Of a DNA stretch of 34,351 nucleotides, positions 1 to 14,995 are shown in pieces; position 1 is the first letter of the stretch, and each line of letters begins with the position of its first letter. The notes below the pieces were generated by a model. That model ran no database searches. It was given only the letters and a program-made list of their open reading frames with translations, and had not been told where the DNA came from. A program made the translations under genes and the position numbers. Location: positions 172,192 to 206,542 of the forward strand of contig DUBX01000043.1 in NCBI GenBank assembly GCA_012960115.1, in the 5' to 3' direction. The stretch is from Porticoccaceae bacterium. GTDB lineage: Bacteria > Pseudomonadota > Gammaproteobacteria > Pseudomonadales > Porticoccaceae.

Positions 1-648
1 GAACAAGCAAGCACGAGTGGTCACGTCCGCGTCAGTACTAGACCACCAGCTGAGGTTGTCGGCCGACTCACCAACTGCCAGAGCGCCAGCAACTGGAGCA
101 AGCTTCCAGTTACCAACCAAACCAGCAGCAGTCACTGACGAACCAACAGAAGTATCTGTAGCTTTCATTAACTTAAACTGCCATGTGTTAGCACCGTTGT
201 ACTGAATCTGAACGGTCATACTATTACCATCAGCCGCAAACTCAGTCACGTTATAGGTGATAGTCGAGACAGCATTAGCAACATCGGATATCTCTCCACT
301 ACCTGTCACCTTAGGTAAACCAAGATGTGCACCTAAACCATTAACAGTGACTTTCGAATCAGCAACGCTGTATGTTCCATCTGTGTAGCTGCCATCATGC
401 GGCGCAACTGGTGTTGCACAACCTTCAGGATCAGTTCCCTGCCATGCCTCGACCCAAGTCTCAGTCCCCATATCCTGAGAGAATGAACCATCTGAACCAA
501 ACGTATAAACATCATCGAACAAGCAAGCACGAGTGGTCACGTCCGCGTCAGTACTAGACCACCAACTGAGGTTGTCGGCCGACTCACCAACTGCCAGAGC
601 GCCAGCAACTGGAGCAAGCTTCCAGTTACCGACCAAATCCGCTGCCGT
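1..648 (-). repeat. Second family of the same module, period 516 bp, second copy cut by the window edge
   Basis: Bases 2-116 recur almost exactly at 518-632 (offset 516 bp, 172 codons), with one clear difference near position 51. The module is recognisably the same as at 2160-4113 (ADNLSWWSSTDADV, TRACLFDD, TETWVEAWQG, PVAPHDGS, GAHLGLPK) but begins G-N-W-K-LAPVAGALAVG. These are copies five and six of the protein. The last is partial. Confidence 0.9.
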
Positions 649-3600
649 CACTGCAACTGCAGCACTCACAGGGGCGCCCACAAACGTCACATCATCAAAG
701 TAATAAGTCTCTGATGACCCAACTGAACCAAAGTTAAAGAAGATAGACAACGTATCAAACACATATTCAGGATGAAGCGGATTAGTTGGATTCCCGTCGT
801 TAGTGGCTGGGTTGCTGAAGTCAAAGGTTAATGTTTCCCATGCATTGGCAACAGTTGTCACCGCATCCGTTTCAACCGTGTGAGTATTGTCACCTGACTC
901 TTCGAGCTTCAGCCTGACCGTAATACCCACCTCTGGAGAATATACACGAACAGTCATCACAGTCTCTGTCGCTGTGATGGGATAAACAATAAGACCTCTG
1001 GCGATCGTAGTACCCGCCCAAGTTTCACTGCCTTTAATAACCGAAACAACGGTATTGGTCGCATCGGTTGGATCAGCAACCAATGTACTCACATTGTTAC
1101 CAAAGTCATCCAAAGCATAAATACCAACGGTAGTTGAGTTAAAGTTAATCACCTCACCAACGTTCAACGTCGTATCACTGCCAGTCCCCAAATCACCGCC
1201 TACTGGATCTACTGGATCTACTGGATCTACTGGATCTACTGATTCAGTGGTCACACTCACATCATCAATCGATACAGCTCCTACCTCGCCACCCATATCA
1301 AACAAGACACGGCTGTTATCATCACCAAAGCCAGTCGTGGTAATGGTATAGCTAAATGTTTGCCACTCAGTGGTCAGAGCTACTGATTCTGTGACATTTG
1401 TCCAGGGATCATGATACAAGCCAAGACCGGCAAGCATCGTGCGTGCGACTGACGCCTTCGCTTTAAACGATACGGTATAAGCGGTATCAGCCACTAAAGT
1501 CATCGTCTGACTCAAGTTAACATCATATACATTGCCGGCAGCTACTACGTCGATCTCAAAGTAAGACACAACTGCAGTGTCAGCGTTGGACCAACTCGTT
1601 GAACCATTACTGAAATCACCATTTGTTAGTAACTCGACGCCATCAGAGACTAGCTTTACGCTAACATCATCAATCGAGACAGTACCAACTTCGCCACCCA
1701 TATCAAACAAGACGCGGCTGTCGTCATCACCAAAAACAACACCGTCTGCATCAGCGGTGGTTATCGTATAGGTGAATGTTTGCCATTCAGTGGTAAGGGA
1801 TACTGTTTCTGTGGCAGCATTCCAGGGACCATGGTTCAAACCAAGACCTGCAACCATTGTGCGTGCTACCGATGCCTTCGCTTTAAACGATACTTCATAT
1901 GCTGTATCAGCCACTAAAGTCATCACCTGACTTAAATTAACAGACCATACATCACCCGCACTTACTACGTCGACTTCAAAGTGCGCAAGAACCGCAGTAT
2001 CAGCGCCAGTCCAACCTGTTGAACCAGACTGGAAATCGCCATTCGTTACCAACTCTGAACCTACTGGATCTACTGGATCTACTGGATCTACTGGATCTAC
2101 TGGATCTACTGGATCTACTGGATCTACTGGGTCTACTGGATCTGTGCCACCAGAGGCATTCTTAACTAGGTTAAAGGTCCACCAAACACCTGATGCTGTT
2201 TCAACAGTAACCGTCAGGTAATTGCCGTCCCCAGTCAGTGTAAGAACGTTGTATGTAATAGAATCTGGCGCTGCGCCTGGGTCAGAGAGTTCCTGGCCAT
2301 TGACTGCCTTAGCTAGGCCTAAATGAGCACCCTTACCGGTTATGGTTAAGGTCCCTGCAGCCTCGTCGTGACTAAAGGTCGCTGCGGCACTACCATCATG
2401 AGGCGCAACTGGCGCACCACAACTTTCAGCAGCGGCACCCTGCCACGTTTCCAACCAAGTTTCTGAACCCATTACATTAGAGAATGAGCCGTCATCACCA
2501 AACTCAAAAGTATCATCAAACCAACAGGCGCGTGCTTCAACAGCTGCCGCATCGGCTGACCACCAGTCCATGTTTCCGGGGGTTGGTCCAACACCCGCTG
2601 AGCCGGCGCCGTCTAAAGACCAGCTTCCAGCAAGCGCTGAATCAGGAACCCTCACTAAATTGAAAGTCCACCAAACACCTGATGCTGTTTCAAGAGTAAC
2701 CGTCAAGTTATTACCGTCAGCCGTTAGTGTCAGTATGTTATAGGTAATAGAATCTGGCGCAGCACCGGGGTCAGATAGTTCCTGACCATTGACCGCTTTA
2801 GCTAGACCTAAATGGGCACCCTTACCGTTTATTGTTAAGGTCCCAGCTACCTCATCATGAATAAAGCTCGCTGCGGCGCTTCCGTTATGAGGCGCTACTG
2901 GCGTTCCACAGCTTTCAGCATCTGCACCCTGCCACGTTTCCAGCCAAGTCTCAGAACCCATCACATTGTTAAAGGAGCCATCTTCACCGAAGGTAAACCG
3001 ATCATCAAACCAGCACGCGCGTGCTTCAACAGCTGCCGCATCGGCTGACCACCAGTCCATGTTTCCGGGGGTTGGTCCAACACCCGCAGACCCAGCACCG
3101 TCTAATCGCCAATTACCGGCAAGTACCGATGGCGGTACTTTTGCCAAGTTGAATGTCCACCAAACGCCTGATGCTGTCTCAACAGTAACTGTTAAGTTCA
3201 TGCCATCAGCGGTGAGTGTTAAAATTTGATAGGTAACAGAATCTGGAGCTGCACCGGGATCAGATAATTCCTGACCATTAACAGCCTTTGCCAAGCCTAA
3301 ATGAGCGCCCTTACCATTAATTGTTAGTGTTCCCGCTGCCTCATCGTGACTAAAGGTCGCTACAGCACTGCCATCGTGAGGCGCTACAGGTGCGCCACAA
3401 GCATCAGCACCACCCTGCCAAGCTTCTACCCAAGTATCAGAGCCCATAACGTTAGAGAAAGATCCGTCAGTTCCAAATACAAAGCTATCATCAAACCAAC
3501 AGGCGCGCGCAGTCACAGCCGCTTCATCAGCAGACCACCAGTCCATGTTTCCGGGGGTTGGTCCAACACCTGCGGCACCTGCGCCGTCAAGTTTCCAGCT

Positions 3601-4614
3601 TCCTACAAACGGCGACACTGGCTTTTTAGCCAAGTTAAATGTCCACCAAACACCCGATGCGGTCTCAACCGTGACGGTCAAGTTCATGCCATCTGCAGTA
3701 AGTGTTAAAATTTGATAGGTAATGGAGTCTGGAGCAGCACCTGGATCAGATAACTCCTGACCATTAACTGCTTTAGCTAAGCCTAAATGAGCGCCCTTAC
3801 CATTAATCGTTAGGGTCCCTGCCGCTTCGTCCCATACCCAAGTTGCATCTGCACTACCATCGTGAGGCGCTACCGGGGTTCCACAGCTTTCAGCATCAGC
3901 ACCCTGCCAGGTCTCTAGCCAAGTCTCTTCGCCCATGACATTAGAGAACGATCCTGCTTTAGTGAAGGAAAACACGTCATCAAACCAGCATGCCCGTGTT
4001 TCAACGGCTGCCGCATCGGCTGACCACCAGTCCATGTTTCCGGGGGTTGGCCCAACACCGGCTGCACCGGCTCCGTCAAGCATCCAATCACCAACGAGAG
4101 GATCTTCGACTGGGGCAACGCAACCCTCGGCACAATACTGTACACGGCTACCATCGGTTGTTTCAGAGACATCTACTCCGACCTCACCACTGGTATCGCT
4201 GAATGAAATGTTAAACGTTACATAACCATCCACGTCGGAGTCAGTCATTTGACGAGAAGCTGACCAGTCGCCAATTTTCCCTTCTAGGGATGCTGATACA
4301 CCATTAATCGTAACCTCAGGGGTCATCAATGCTTCAGAGGCCGTAAAATCAACTTTGATCGACTGACCTAATTTAGCCACGCCATCGGGACTCGAATTCT
4401 TTTCTTGCTGTTGAAGGATAGATACGCTGACCAACACAGGCGCTACTCCATCGGAGCCTGGATCAACCAAGTCATTTTCCGTGACACTGTCACCACCGCC
4501 ACCGCAGGCTGACAAGATCAATGAAAATGAGAGTGCAAGAATTGCACTAAAATGTTTGGCTTGGAAAAAAGCTTGGAACCAACCCAGATTACTAACGATT
4601 GTTTGCGAACGCAT
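1..4614 (-). CDS. Giant multi-module surface lipoprotein, C-terminus off the left edge (glycan-binding type)
   Basis: The frame is open from an ATG at 4614 to the window edge (1538 codons, no stop). A GGGGGAG ribosome site lies just upstream. Residues 20-37 form a lipoprotein signal ending in LILSAC, with Cys37 followed by GGGGD. Order after that: an Ig-like domain (about 55-160; 'VKVDFTASEAL', 'TTDGS'); four tandem copies of a ~163-residue module (about 168-818); a (VDP)9 linker; two related CBM4/9-like jelly-roll domains (about 853-1123; 'LLTNGDFSNGSTSW', 'SIDDVSV'); a (VDP)4 linker; a third, different jelly-roll-like domain ending 'YYFDDVTF'; then two more module copies of the 172-residue type. 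No catalytic domain is visible, but one could follow beyond the edge; from memory, similar modules accompany marine polysaccharide-degrading enzymes. The lipobox predicts an outer-membrane, possibly surface-exposed protein that binds or degrades polysaccharide (inference). It is transcribed away from bolA. Confidence 0.85.
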   Translation of the reverse strand, partial: MRSQTIVSNLGWFQAFFQAKHFSAILALSFSLILSACGGGGDSVTENDLVDPGSDGVAPVLVSVSILQQQEKNSSPDGVAKLGQSIKVDFTASEALMTPEVTINGVSASLEGKIGDWSASRQMTDSDVDGYVTFNISFSDTSGEVGVDVSETTDGSRVQYCAEGCVAPVEDPLVGDWMLDGAGAAGVGPTPGNMDWWSADAAAVETRACWFDDVFSFTKAGSFSNVMGEETWLETWQGADAESCGTPVAPHDGSADATWVWDEAAGTLTINGKGAHLGLAKAVNGQELSDPGAAPDSITYQILTLTADGMNLTVTVETASGVWWTFNLAKKPVSPFVGSWKLDGAGAAGVGPTPGNMDWWSADEAAVTARACWFDDSFVFGTDGSFSNVMGSDTWVEAWQGGADACGAPVAPHDGSAVATFSHDEAAGTLTINGKGAHLGLAKAVNGQELSDPGAAPDSVTYQILTLTADGMNLTVTVETASGVWWTFNLAKVPPSVLAGNWRLDGAGSAGVGPTPGNMDWWSADAAAVEARACWFDDRFTFGEDGSFNNVMGSETWLETWQGADAESCGTPVAPHNGSAAASFIHDEVAGTLTINGKGAHLGLAKAVNGQELSDPGAAPDSITYNILTLTADGNNLTVTLETASGVWWTFNLVRVPDSALAGSWSLDGAGSAGVGPTPGNMDWWSADAAAVEARACWFDDTFEFGDDGSFSNVMGSETWLETWQGAAAESCGAPVAPHDGSAAATFSHDEAAGTLTITGKGAHLGLAKAVNGQELSDPGAAPDSITYNVLTLTGDGNYLTVTVETASGVWWTFNLVKNASGGTDPVDPVDPVDPVDPVDPVDPVDPVDPVGSELVTNGDFQSGSTGWTGADTAVLAHFEVDVVSAGDVWSVNLSQVMTLVADTAYEVSFKAKASVARTMVAGLGLNHGPWNAATETVSLTTEWQTFTYTITTADADGVVFGDDDSRVLFDMGGEVGTVSIDDVSVKLVSDGVELLTNGDFSNGSTSWSNADTAVVSYFEIDVVAAGNVYDVNLSQTMTLVADTAYTVSFKAKASVARTMLAGLGLYHDPWTNVTESVALTTEWQTFSYTITTTGFGDDNSRVLFDMGGEVGAVSIDDVSVTTESVDPVDPVDPVDPVGGDLGTGSDTTLNVGEVINFNSTTVGIYALDDFGNNVSTLVADPTDATNTVVSVIKGSETWAGTTIARGLIVYPITATETVMTVRVYSPEVGITVRLKLEESGDNTHTVETDAVTTVANAWETLTFDFSNPATNDGNPTNPLHPEYVFDTLSIFFNFGSVGSSETYYFDDVTFVGAPVSAAVAVTAADLVGNWKLAPVAGALAVGESADNLSWWSSTDADVTTRACLFDDVYTFGSDGSFSQDMGTETWVEAWQGTDPEGCATPVAPHDGSYTDGTYSVADSKVTVNGLGAHLGLPKVTGSGEISDVANAVSTITYNVTEFAADGNSMTVQIQYNGANTWQFKLMKATDTSVGSSVTAAGLVGNWKLAPVAGALAVGESADNLSWWSSTDADVTTRACLF
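1200..1235 (-). repeat. Four 9-bp units encoding a (VDP)4 linker
   Basis: The same ctactggat unit occurs four times and encodes VDPVDPVDPVDP between the second and third jelly-roll-like domains. It is the same linker type as at 2061-2141 with a different copy number. Confidence 0.93.
2061..2141 (-). repeat. Nine 9-bp units encoding a (VDP)9 linker
   Basis: Nine head-to-tail units of ctactggat on the plus strand, one with a g for a (unit at 2124-2132), read Val-Asp-Pro on the minus strand. The tract separates the four WW modules from the jelly-roll domains. Near-perfect DNA identity suggests the unit number can change by slippage without breaking the frame. Confidence 0.95.
2160..4113 (-). 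repeat. Four tandem copies of a ~163-residue WW module inside the lipoprotein
   Basis: The segment encoding PTPGNMDWWSAD recurs with its DNA anchor (gtccatgtttccggg) starting at 2566, 3055, 3541 and 4030, so the period is 489, 486 and 489 bp. Each copy reads roughly: G-x-W-x-LDGAG, GVGPTPGNMDWWSAD, ARACWFDD, DGSF-x-NVMG-x-ETWLE-x-WQG, C-G-x-PVAPH-x-GS, LTINGKGAHLGLAKAVNG, ELSDPGAAPDS, then TVETASGVWWTFNL. The copies are close to identical at protein level and share long exact DNA stretches, which points to recent duplication or gene conversion. Confidence 0.9.
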
Positions 4615-13476: not shown

Positions 13477-14373
13477 CTACAACCTCATCCCCAAAAGATA
13501 ATTAACCAATTCTTTAAGCTCTTCGGGTGGATTGTCATCATCAAATGTCGCACTCCTATGTGTTTTGCCCTCTGACTTTATAGCTAATGAGGTGACCATG
13601 GCTCCATCAAACTGATGGCGTTTAGAAGGCGCCTGGAGATCCTCGATAGCAGTCACATCTAAGCCCGCTAAAATCGCTCCCAAGACATTGAGATTGGTCT
13701 TAGTTAAAAGAGTTTGGAGTACTTTTTTATCATTTAAAAAGTAGCTATACCTACCCTTGTGCACAACGATTAGCTCCGATTTTCCTCGAGTAATTGCCGA
13801 GTATTCAATCTTTTCAAAGCTTGTCACCTGCAAGGGTGCAGGCCGTTTTACAATCTTATGTGCTGCCTTCTGTAACAGTGCAGTGTCATAACCCAACGAC
13901 CTCACCTGGGATACTAACTCACCATAGTCTTCATCAGAAATTTGCGCTGTCCGCGCCATAATCCAAACATAGTCACGACTGGTACGCCCAATAATTGTTT
14001 GCTGGTAATTGTCATCCAAGTACACAATTCTGTAGTCAGCCTTAATAGGCCAGATAAATTGCATCCCCCAAATCGCGTTATTGCTATTCTCAGCGACAAA
14101 GCCCCGCGGACGATAGATCTTCTGCTCTCCATCAAGGCTACCATCGTTAAAGGTGAAGGTGGTTGCAATAGTGCCATCAGCATCCCTTTGGTACGATTCC
14201 ATCGGATTGTATGCGTCCTTTTCAAGAAAAGTAGGAATGTTAGCAATCACATACCAGTCACCCATGAAACGATTCAAGTCCACAGCATCCACTACAGGCA
14301 TTGACGCTGGCGTACTGCAGGCAACACCCGTTAGTACCATTGTGATGAGTAAGGTAACTCTAAATACTCGCAT
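13477..14373 (-). CDS. Blc-like lipocalin with an extra C-terminal domain
   Basis: The N-terminal half (about residues 30-170 of 298) is a Blc-type lipocalin: 'DLNRFMGDWYVIANIPTFLEKDAYN' carries the G-x-W signature, and 'VYLDDNYQQTIIGRTSRDYVWIMAR' is the conserved Blc strand pair. Bacterial Blc proteins bind fatty acids or lysophospholipids at the outer membrane. Residues 1-19 form a signal ending TGVAC, an imperfect lipobox. The last ~120 residues ('SFEKIEYSAITRGKSELIVVHKG' onward) are not part of a normal lipocalin and I do not recognise them with confidence. The ATG at 14373 follows GGAGGGAG; an ATG at 14394 lies upstream of that ribosome site and is rejected. The start overlaps the end of the upstream gene by 14 bases, so the two are coupled. 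Confidence 0.85.
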   Translation of the reverse strand: MRVFRVTLLITMVLTGVACSTPASMPVVDAVDLNRFMGDWYVIANIPTFLEKDAYNPMESYQRDADGTIATTFTFNDGSLDGEQKIYRPRGFVAENSNNAIWGMQFIWPIKADYRIVYLDDNYQQTIIGRTSRDYVWIMARTAQISDEDYGELVSQVRSLGYDTALLQKAAHKIVKRPAPLQVTSFEKIEYSAITRGKSELIVVHKGRYSYFLNDKKVLQTLLTKTNLNVLGAILAGLDVTAIEDLQAPSKRHQFDGAMVTSLAIKSEGKTHRSATFDDDNPPEELKELVNYLLGMRL

Positions 14374-14995
14374 TTGATTCTCCCTCCGATTCATAGATCC
14401 GTTCGTATCTTAGTTTCCCGGCAACTTTCACGTCAGATTCCAATGATTGCCACGCGCCTGATTCACTATATTGCAGACGGATATCGGTCTTTGCTAGTCC
14501 AAGCGTTTTATGCGTCATTCCCGTACTCGAGTCCTGTTGTGACTCACTCGTAATCGGCGTGTATTGACCCGTTTCTACATTGAGTAAGAATTCACTTTCG
14601 AGCCATTCGGGTCGCCAATAGGCAAAACTTTTTATACAGCCATTAAGACTCACGTCAACACCCGCCCTGGTCACTACAAACTTGCCGGCTATTATTTTGG
14701 CGCTGATCGTGGTGCTTTTATTGTTACGTTGGGTAGAGCTTTCTACACTTTGCAAACAGCCATCTTTCCAGACTTCTTGGGCCACATGTCTATATTTAAT
14801 TTTTTTAACCAACAATACCTTAAAGTCCATTGAGGCCTGTGAAGTAACACGAAGGTCACTCCCATCCTCAGTCAGGGTAAAGCTGTGTTGCCCAACCTCT
14901 TGATCATTGAGAAACATTTTAAATCTAATTATCTCGCTATCAGCTCTACAAATGCCTGTCGGTATTAATAGTAATAAAAACAGTAACTGATACAT
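14360..14995 (-). CDS. Exported DUF6134-like protein
   Basis: This 211-residue protein has a signal peptide (residues 1-18, cut after GICRA). The mature part starts 'SEIIRFKMFLNDQEVGQHSFTL' and contains 'KIKYRHVAQEVWKDGCLQSVESST'. This pattern (a short deduced 'lipid-like' beta-rich protein with YRH...W-x-DGCL) matches what I recall of the DUF6134 family, function unknown. A good AAGGAAA ribosome site precedes the ATG at 14995. Its end overlaps the start of the lipocalin gene, so a joint periplasmic or outer-membrane lipid role is likely (inference). Confidence 0.7.
   Translation of the reverse strand: MYQLLFLLLLIPTGICRADSEIIRFKMFLNDQEVGQHSFTLTEDGSDLRVTSQASMDFKVLLVKKIKYRHVAQEVWKDGCLQSVESSTQRNNKSTTISAKIIAGKFVVTRAGVDVSLNGCIKSFAYWRPEWLESEFLLNVETGQYTPITSESQQDSSTGMTHKTLGLAKTDIRLQYSESGAWQSLESDVKVAGKLRYERIYESEGESNASI

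Follow-up and report, generated by a model that had tools for sequence, protein, structure and literature searches.

A lipoprotein with six WW modules

The stretch of DNA studied here (the window; 34,351 nucleotides [nt]) is the terminal part of contig C43 (bases 172192-206542 of 206542), which belongs to the 2.43-Mb genome of a Porticoccaceae bacterium. A single minus-strand open reading frame (ORF), spanning window positions 1-4614, has 1538 codons with an ATG start and is open at the window edge. It encodes a lipoprotein that probably sits in the outer membrane and that contains repeats of a module here called WW. An N-terminal beta-sandwich is followed by four type A WW modules, a Pro-Val-Asp linker, two CBM4/9-like domains, a second Pro-Val-Asp linker, a third domain similar to PDB 8qx6 and two type B WW modules (Table 1). 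Loci of relatives carry L numbers; L001 is the locus of the window gene and L003 that of its orthologue.

Table 1. Features of the window protein (pLDDT, predicted local distance difference test)
Feature	Window position	Strand	Basis
Signal peptide with lipobox LSA-C37, residues 1-36	4507..4614	-	sequence
N-terminal beta-sandwich domain, residues 37-173	4096..4506	-	AlphaFold pLDDT 82.2 on 14 rows
WW module 1, type A, residues 174-336	3607..4095	-	
WW module 2, type A, residues 337-498	3121..3606	-	
WW module 3, type A, residues 499-661	2632..3120	-	structure predicted; row 1 of alignment A2
WW module 4, type A, residues 662-824; final few residues enter Pro-Val-Asp linker	2143..2631	-	
CBM4/9-like domain 1, residues about 854-991	1642..2055	-	Pfam, PDB 1gui match; end inferred
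CBM4/9-like domain 2, residues about 994-1121	1252..1635	-	Pfam best stretch 994-1105
Third beta-sandwich-type domain, residues about 1141-1313, 8qx6-related	676..1194	-	phmmer; ends partly inferred
WW module 5, type B, residues 1328-1490	145..633	-	
WW module 6, type B, first 39 residues; rest lost to scaffold gap outside window	1..117	-	

Module starts (residue 1500 for module 6) are spaced by 162-163 residues, or 172 for the last pair, and the WW motifs begin at residues 193, 356, 518, 681, 1348 and 1520. Protein identity to module 1 is 82, 82, 81 and 46% for modules 2, 3, 4 and 5, respectively, and modules 1-4 are 73-82% identical at the DNA level. Judged from the sequence, the repeat is plainly beyond chance. 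An earlier note on this DNA had described six copies in one lipoprotein, and this count held: the window contains five complete modules and the beginning of a sixth, and the intact orthologue has six. The motif set given in that note fits modules 1-4, but modules 5 and 6 belong to a second, diverged type, with the motifs NLSWWS, TRACLFDD, ETWVEAWQG and GLGAHLGLPK and without the terminal WW. Searching the own genome for WW modules with a DNA pattern at first gave 0 matches; a profile search did find them.

The ORF is open at the window edge because a scaffold gap of 201 N (L001:14992-15192) begins there, just outside window position 1 and inside module 6. The C-terminus, sought beyond the window, was found past this gap as the last 56 residues of module 6 and a stop codon. 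The L003 orthologue, with 1661 codons from stop to stop, has exactly six WW modules in the same domain order, and it is intact. If module 6 is L003-like, the stretch lost from it amounts to 189 nt, which is near the length of the gap, but gap sizes are estimates. Since the edge of the window is the edge of the gap, the assembly may have collapsed repeats at this point, and further WW copies could lie within the gap. Chance or an assembly artefact as the source of the whole array was ruled out, because L003 holds the identical domain order intact.

Pfam CBM_4_9 matched the protein in three stretches (E 2.1e-21), with the best at residues 994-1105 and a second such domain from about residue 854, which bears out the CBM4/9-like neighbours named in the earlier note. 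PDB 1gui, the CBM4 of Thermotoga laminarinase 16A, matched residues 887-1121 (E 9.6e-13), and PDB 8qx6, perhaps a CBM102, matched residues 1214-1309 (phmmer E 4.7e-6). Foldseek matches of the predicted N-terminal domain were mostly Ig-like, with none at E <= 0.001; this domain is probably an Ig-like spacer. Other Pfam matches (PilA4, PPR, WxL and DUF7604) were all under cut-offs and were taken as chance or repeat effects, as were PDB matches of residues 436-513 to designed or pentatricopeptide proteins.

Fold and relatives of the WW module

Apart from CBM_4_9, nothing in Pfam matched the window protein above cut-off, so the WW modules are without a Pfam name, and NCBIfam gave no match to the protein. 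We aligned 74 diverse WW modules (alignment A2; profile of 162 positions, mean column identity 51%). Two Cys are invariant in 74/74 modules, and several Trp plus Arg, Asp and His are conserved in all or nearly all of them. None of the 74 matched NCBIfam at 0.01. Pfam Lipocalin_4 (PF13648) was weakly matched by four of them at E <= 0.1 (best E 0.0018), and the module protein of L016 (Bacteroidota) scored 22.4 bits for this family, equal to the cut-off of 22.4; the window protein did not match Lipocalin_4.

Structure prediction of WW module 3 alone reached a pLDDT of 96.8. In a structure comparison, this predicted fold matched over the whole domain the C-terminal beta-barrel of BfSGBP-B from Bacteroides fluxus (PDB 7kv5, 7kv6 and 7kv7); the lower rows were mostly lipocalins and lipocalin-like proteins. 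In its structure paper, this barrel is reportedly described as distinct and as having a shallow canyon for binding. A structure with laminaritriose exists for this nearest solved relative, and it is reported to bind laminarin and barley mixed-linkage glucan (PMC7157763).

The same relationship emerged from profiles by way of A3, an intermediate family of 10 domains near WW loci (187 positions, mean column identity 41%). A3 domains stand ahead of GH16 in L048 and L075, a PKD domain being weakly seen ahead of the one in L048, and the other eight lie in ORFs of 286-322 residues. The A3 profile matched BfSGBP-B 7kv5 with E 2.9e-26, and A2 aligned with A3 in hhalign with a probability of 96.9 (E 1.5e-10). 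On profile evidence, the WW module is homologous to the BfSGBP-B barrel through A3. The module had been put forward as a candidate new domain. This stood insofar as it has no Pfam or NCBIfam name above cut-off, but it is not wholly new, because fold and profile tie it to the solved glucan-binding barrel of BfSGBP-B. A match to a characterised non-glycan domain, which would have spoken against the earlier note, did not occur; the match was to a characterised glycan-binding domain. By fold and profile, the WW module thus belongs to a known beta-glucan-binding barrel, of which it forms a branch that Pfam and NCBIfam leave unnamed and that often occurs in several copies. The literature searched on the module, as far as its text was available, held no description of it. 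The C-terminal glucan-binding domain of a Vibrio GH17 enzyme was set aside as a relative because it is described as a beta-sandwich, a different fold (PMC9026390).

We scanned 10 host proteins for accompanying domains. One protein of L035 combines GH5, three CBM6 stretches and one WW module; together with the pLDDT of the lone module, this marks the WW module, as modelled, as an independent fold that occurs in a carbohydrate-active enzyme. In L048, two WW modules come after two PKD stretches and an 8qx6-like domain, CBM_4_9, CBM9_1 and a secretion tail accompany the module in L068, and Ig-like and HYR repeats stand beside it in L073. In L016, a protein of 617 residues has three WW modules and no other domain above cut-off. 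Very large module proteins of 1668-1770 residues were seen in L035:4518-9791 and L037:4503-15000; L037 has two in succession, the second with a much diverged module.

Gene neighbourhood and spread

A scan of species genomes gave 225 candidate stretches, of which 171 encode a relative, and the best 80 of these 171 yielded 75 loci. By record title, 52 belong to Bacteroidota, 21 to Pseudomonadota and 1 to Fidelibacterota, and 1 has no phylum. Metagenome genomes with the title SAR92 clade or Porticoccaceae supplied the three best matches of the window (94% identity). For the neighbouring genes, labels were assigned with phmmer (E 1e-10), using seeds mostly named by Pfam; the labels GH149-like and GH2C-like had no firm Pfam name and were left unused. 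Among the 75 loci, many of them shortened, a TonB receptor was found in 48, SusD in 37, GH16 in 36 and GH3 in 17. When we considered the 39 loci with at least 4 kb on both sides, the counts were 31 for TonB receptor, 28 for GH16, 25 for SusD and 32 for any of the three. The 31 well-flanked Bacteroidota loci had TonB receptor, GH16 and SusD in 24 cases each (any, 25; SusD and GH16 together, 23), and the 8 well-flanked Pseudomonadota loci had them in 7, 4 and 1 cases, respectively (any, 7).

Direct upstream position was defined as same strand and less than 400 nt away, in the 64 loci with at least 1.5 kb upstream. SusD occupied it in 29 loci, a TonB receptor in 5, GH16 in 3 and none of these in 27. 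SusD lay there in 28 of 45 Bacteroidota loci, so that the module gene of these relatives is in SusE-type position; in Pseudomonadota, 5 of 18 loci have a TonB receptor there. The commonest order in Bacteroidota was regulator, SusC, SusD, module gene, then GH16 and others. As a base rate, 12 isolate genomes (47.2 Mb), picked after their neighbours were known, contained 163 SusD and 39 GH16 matches; the chance that a 16-kb stretch contains one is thus about 1.3% for GH16 and about 5.5% for SusD. In 12/12 of these genomes, all modules sat in a single locus, no more than 1.7 kb from a SusD match and no more than 5.1 kb from a GH16 match.

Some single loci stood out. L027 has a Rhodobacteraceae title, yet a Flavobacteriaceae-style order of SusC, SusD and three modules; a mis-binned contig is therefore likely, and this is probably the sole SusD case among Pseudomonadota-titled loci. 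In L031:6569-8447, the module gene lies in two overlapping frames (1 + 2 modules) and the TonB receptor and SusD labels are doubled too, so sequencing errors are likely. Tryptophan-halogenase-like genes and a TonB receptor stand beside the module gene in L006, L007, L009, L010, L012, L013, L014, L018 and L021, nine loci titled as Gammaproteobacteria groups.

In the own genome, a GH3 gene with an Exop_C domain lies about 3.3 kb from the module gene. A LytTR-type response regulator and a histidine kinase, named from sequence, stand in between (L001:11921-13912), and L003 keeps a similar order. Two adjacent GH16 genes are located on contig C3. Elsewhere in the window, a Pfam Lipocalin_2 protein (13477-14394, minus strand, E 2.1e-37) is encoded beside a DUF6134 gene (14360-14995).

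Of 56 relatives, 20 carry the module, and these all belong to the own genus (20/35); in the own class it was found in 2 of 274 genomes. The own genome is counted in each case. In the class of L016's genome, it was found in 14 of 295, that genome included, two of the 14 only at E > 1e-5. Such a patchy distribution is as compatible with transfer as with loss. A tree of 110 modules from 36 of the 75 loci plus the window, made by a quick method with Shimodaira-Hasegawa-like approximate likelihood ratio test (SH-aLRT) supports only, mostly parts Pseudomonadota from Bacteroidota, with three changes for each label; it shows no direction and no recent transfer. Type A modules 1, 2 and 4 of the window and L003 pair by position (supports 99, 94 and 89), while module 3 did not resolve, and the type A array therefore seems older than their split. 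The type B modules form a clade (support 95) with modules from two other Porticoccaceae records. In many cases modules group within one protein, which points to repeated separate expansions or gene conversion.

Putative laminarin capture and comparison with known systems

Laminarin is an algal storage sugar and the food of many ocean bacteria. With good confidence, we read the window protein as a multivalent binder of laminarin-type beta(1,3)-glucan at the cell surface, its ligand, binding site, surface exposure and avidity being inferred. The carbohydrate binding suggested by the earlier note, though putative, is well supported, because predicted structure, profile homology and the genome context of relatives agree; of the proposed ligands (laminarin, alginate, pectin and similar glycans), the range narrows by inference to beta(1,3)-glucan. 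Multivalency would follow from the six copies. Each WW module would be a lipocalin-like beta-barrel, homologous to the glucan-binding barrel of BfSGBP-B, and would probably use a shallow aromatic canyon to bind a short segment of the glucan chain. Together, six of these barrels and three CBM-like domains on Pro-Val-Asp linkers would form a long multivalent arm able to hold soluble laminarin near the cell, where GH16 and GH3 enzymes and a TonB-dependent transporter would then process it.

Several findings weigh against this proposal. No transporter, SusD or GH16 was found beside the module gene in the own genome, and housekeeping genes make up most of the 19 further ORFs scanned among the 26 listed for the window. 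With no SusC or SusD adjoining it, the module gene is not in SusE-type position there, and the locus is not classical. Seven of the 39 well-flanked loci, that of the intact orthologue L003 included, lack TonB receptor, SusD and GH16 altogether, and the 27 loci with none of these directly upstream include 12 of the 18 Pseudomonadota-titled ones. Because the 75 loci were drawn from the top 80 of 171 matches, they are biased towards close relatives, and the 12 base-rate genomes were picked with their neighbours already known. Moreover, the WW profile matched nothing among PDB sequences at E <= 10; the kinship to BfSGBP-B is therefore distant.

A further point against laminarin concerns the ligand itself. 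In four of the 10 scanned hosts (L026, L047, L059 and L076), CBM_48/AMPK1_CBM-like matches and a secretion tail accompany the module (the matches of L047 being below Pfam cut-offs), L055 has CBM48/CBM20-like matches, and L035 brings in GH5 and CBM6. The module might thus bind another glycan, an alpha-glucan or other beta-glucan, with laminarin-type loci only part of its range. We consider this unlikely: CBM48-like matches sometimes represent generic E-set domains, 36 of the 75 loci, those four included, have GH16 close to the module, and the closest relative of known structure was solved with laminaritriose and reportedly binds laminarin. The weak Lipocalin_4 matches, the L016 score exactly at the cut-off and the lipocalins that fill most lower rows of the structure comparison would suit a true lipocalin with a small hydrophobic ligand inside and no surface sugar, a reading to which we assign very little probability. 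It is equally improbable that the repeats are an adhesion or spacer stalk holding the CBM4/9-like domains off the cell without binding of their own, for although they are tandem, closely spaced and often clustered by protein in the tree, as repeat stalks may be, the conserved Trp, Arg, Asp and His in 74 modules from records titled as three phyla exceed apparent spacer needs, and some proteins, that of L016 for one, have the module as their principal domain.

Beyond the window protein, we give an even chance to a broader view of laminarin-type glucan capture by WW modules. In this view they would form an unregistered family of beta(1,3)-glucan binders built on a calycin-type barrel. Capture arms of 1 to 6 copies would serve Bacteroidota in their laminarin loci and also Gammaproteobacteria, where other TonB receptors would replace SusC/SusD; SAR92-type bacteria would thus own a functional SusE/SusF counterpart. 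Predicted laminarin clusters were reported for 6 of 22 SAR92-type species (PMC8371827). The WW module protein is a concrete candidate for laminarin capture without SusD in these Gammaproteobacteria. Unnamed in Pfam and NCBIfam, yet in the binding-protein slot of many laminarin-type loci, the module would be a useful marker and a ready test object.

Among known systems, CBM102 and CBM103 of Christiangramia forsetii reportedly bind laminarin within a multi-module surface protein and a GH16_3 enzyme of marine Bacteroidota. Here, 8qx6 resembles the third domain of the window protein and the L048 domain ahead of the modules, not the WW module; likewise, the CBM of laminarinase 16A (1gui) resembles the domains between WW modules 4 and 5. 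Bacterial lipocalin-like proteins (Pfam Lipocalin_4 and others) have a calycin-type beta-barrel in common with the predicted WW module. The A3 domains are BfSGBP-B-like and resemble WW modules by profile homology and by occurring within the same loci, but they are single-copy, longer (187 versus 162 positions) and less conserved (41% versus 51%). Their comparison group, BfSGBP-B-like domains, also occurs in Maribacter GH16_3 (PMC11345257). The WW module is about 25% identical to the C-terminal barrel of BfSGBP-B itself, but unlike it occurs in up to six copies per protein, has PVAPHDGS and GxGAHLGL segments and two invariant Cys, and is also found in Gammaproteobacteria, as a rule without SusD.
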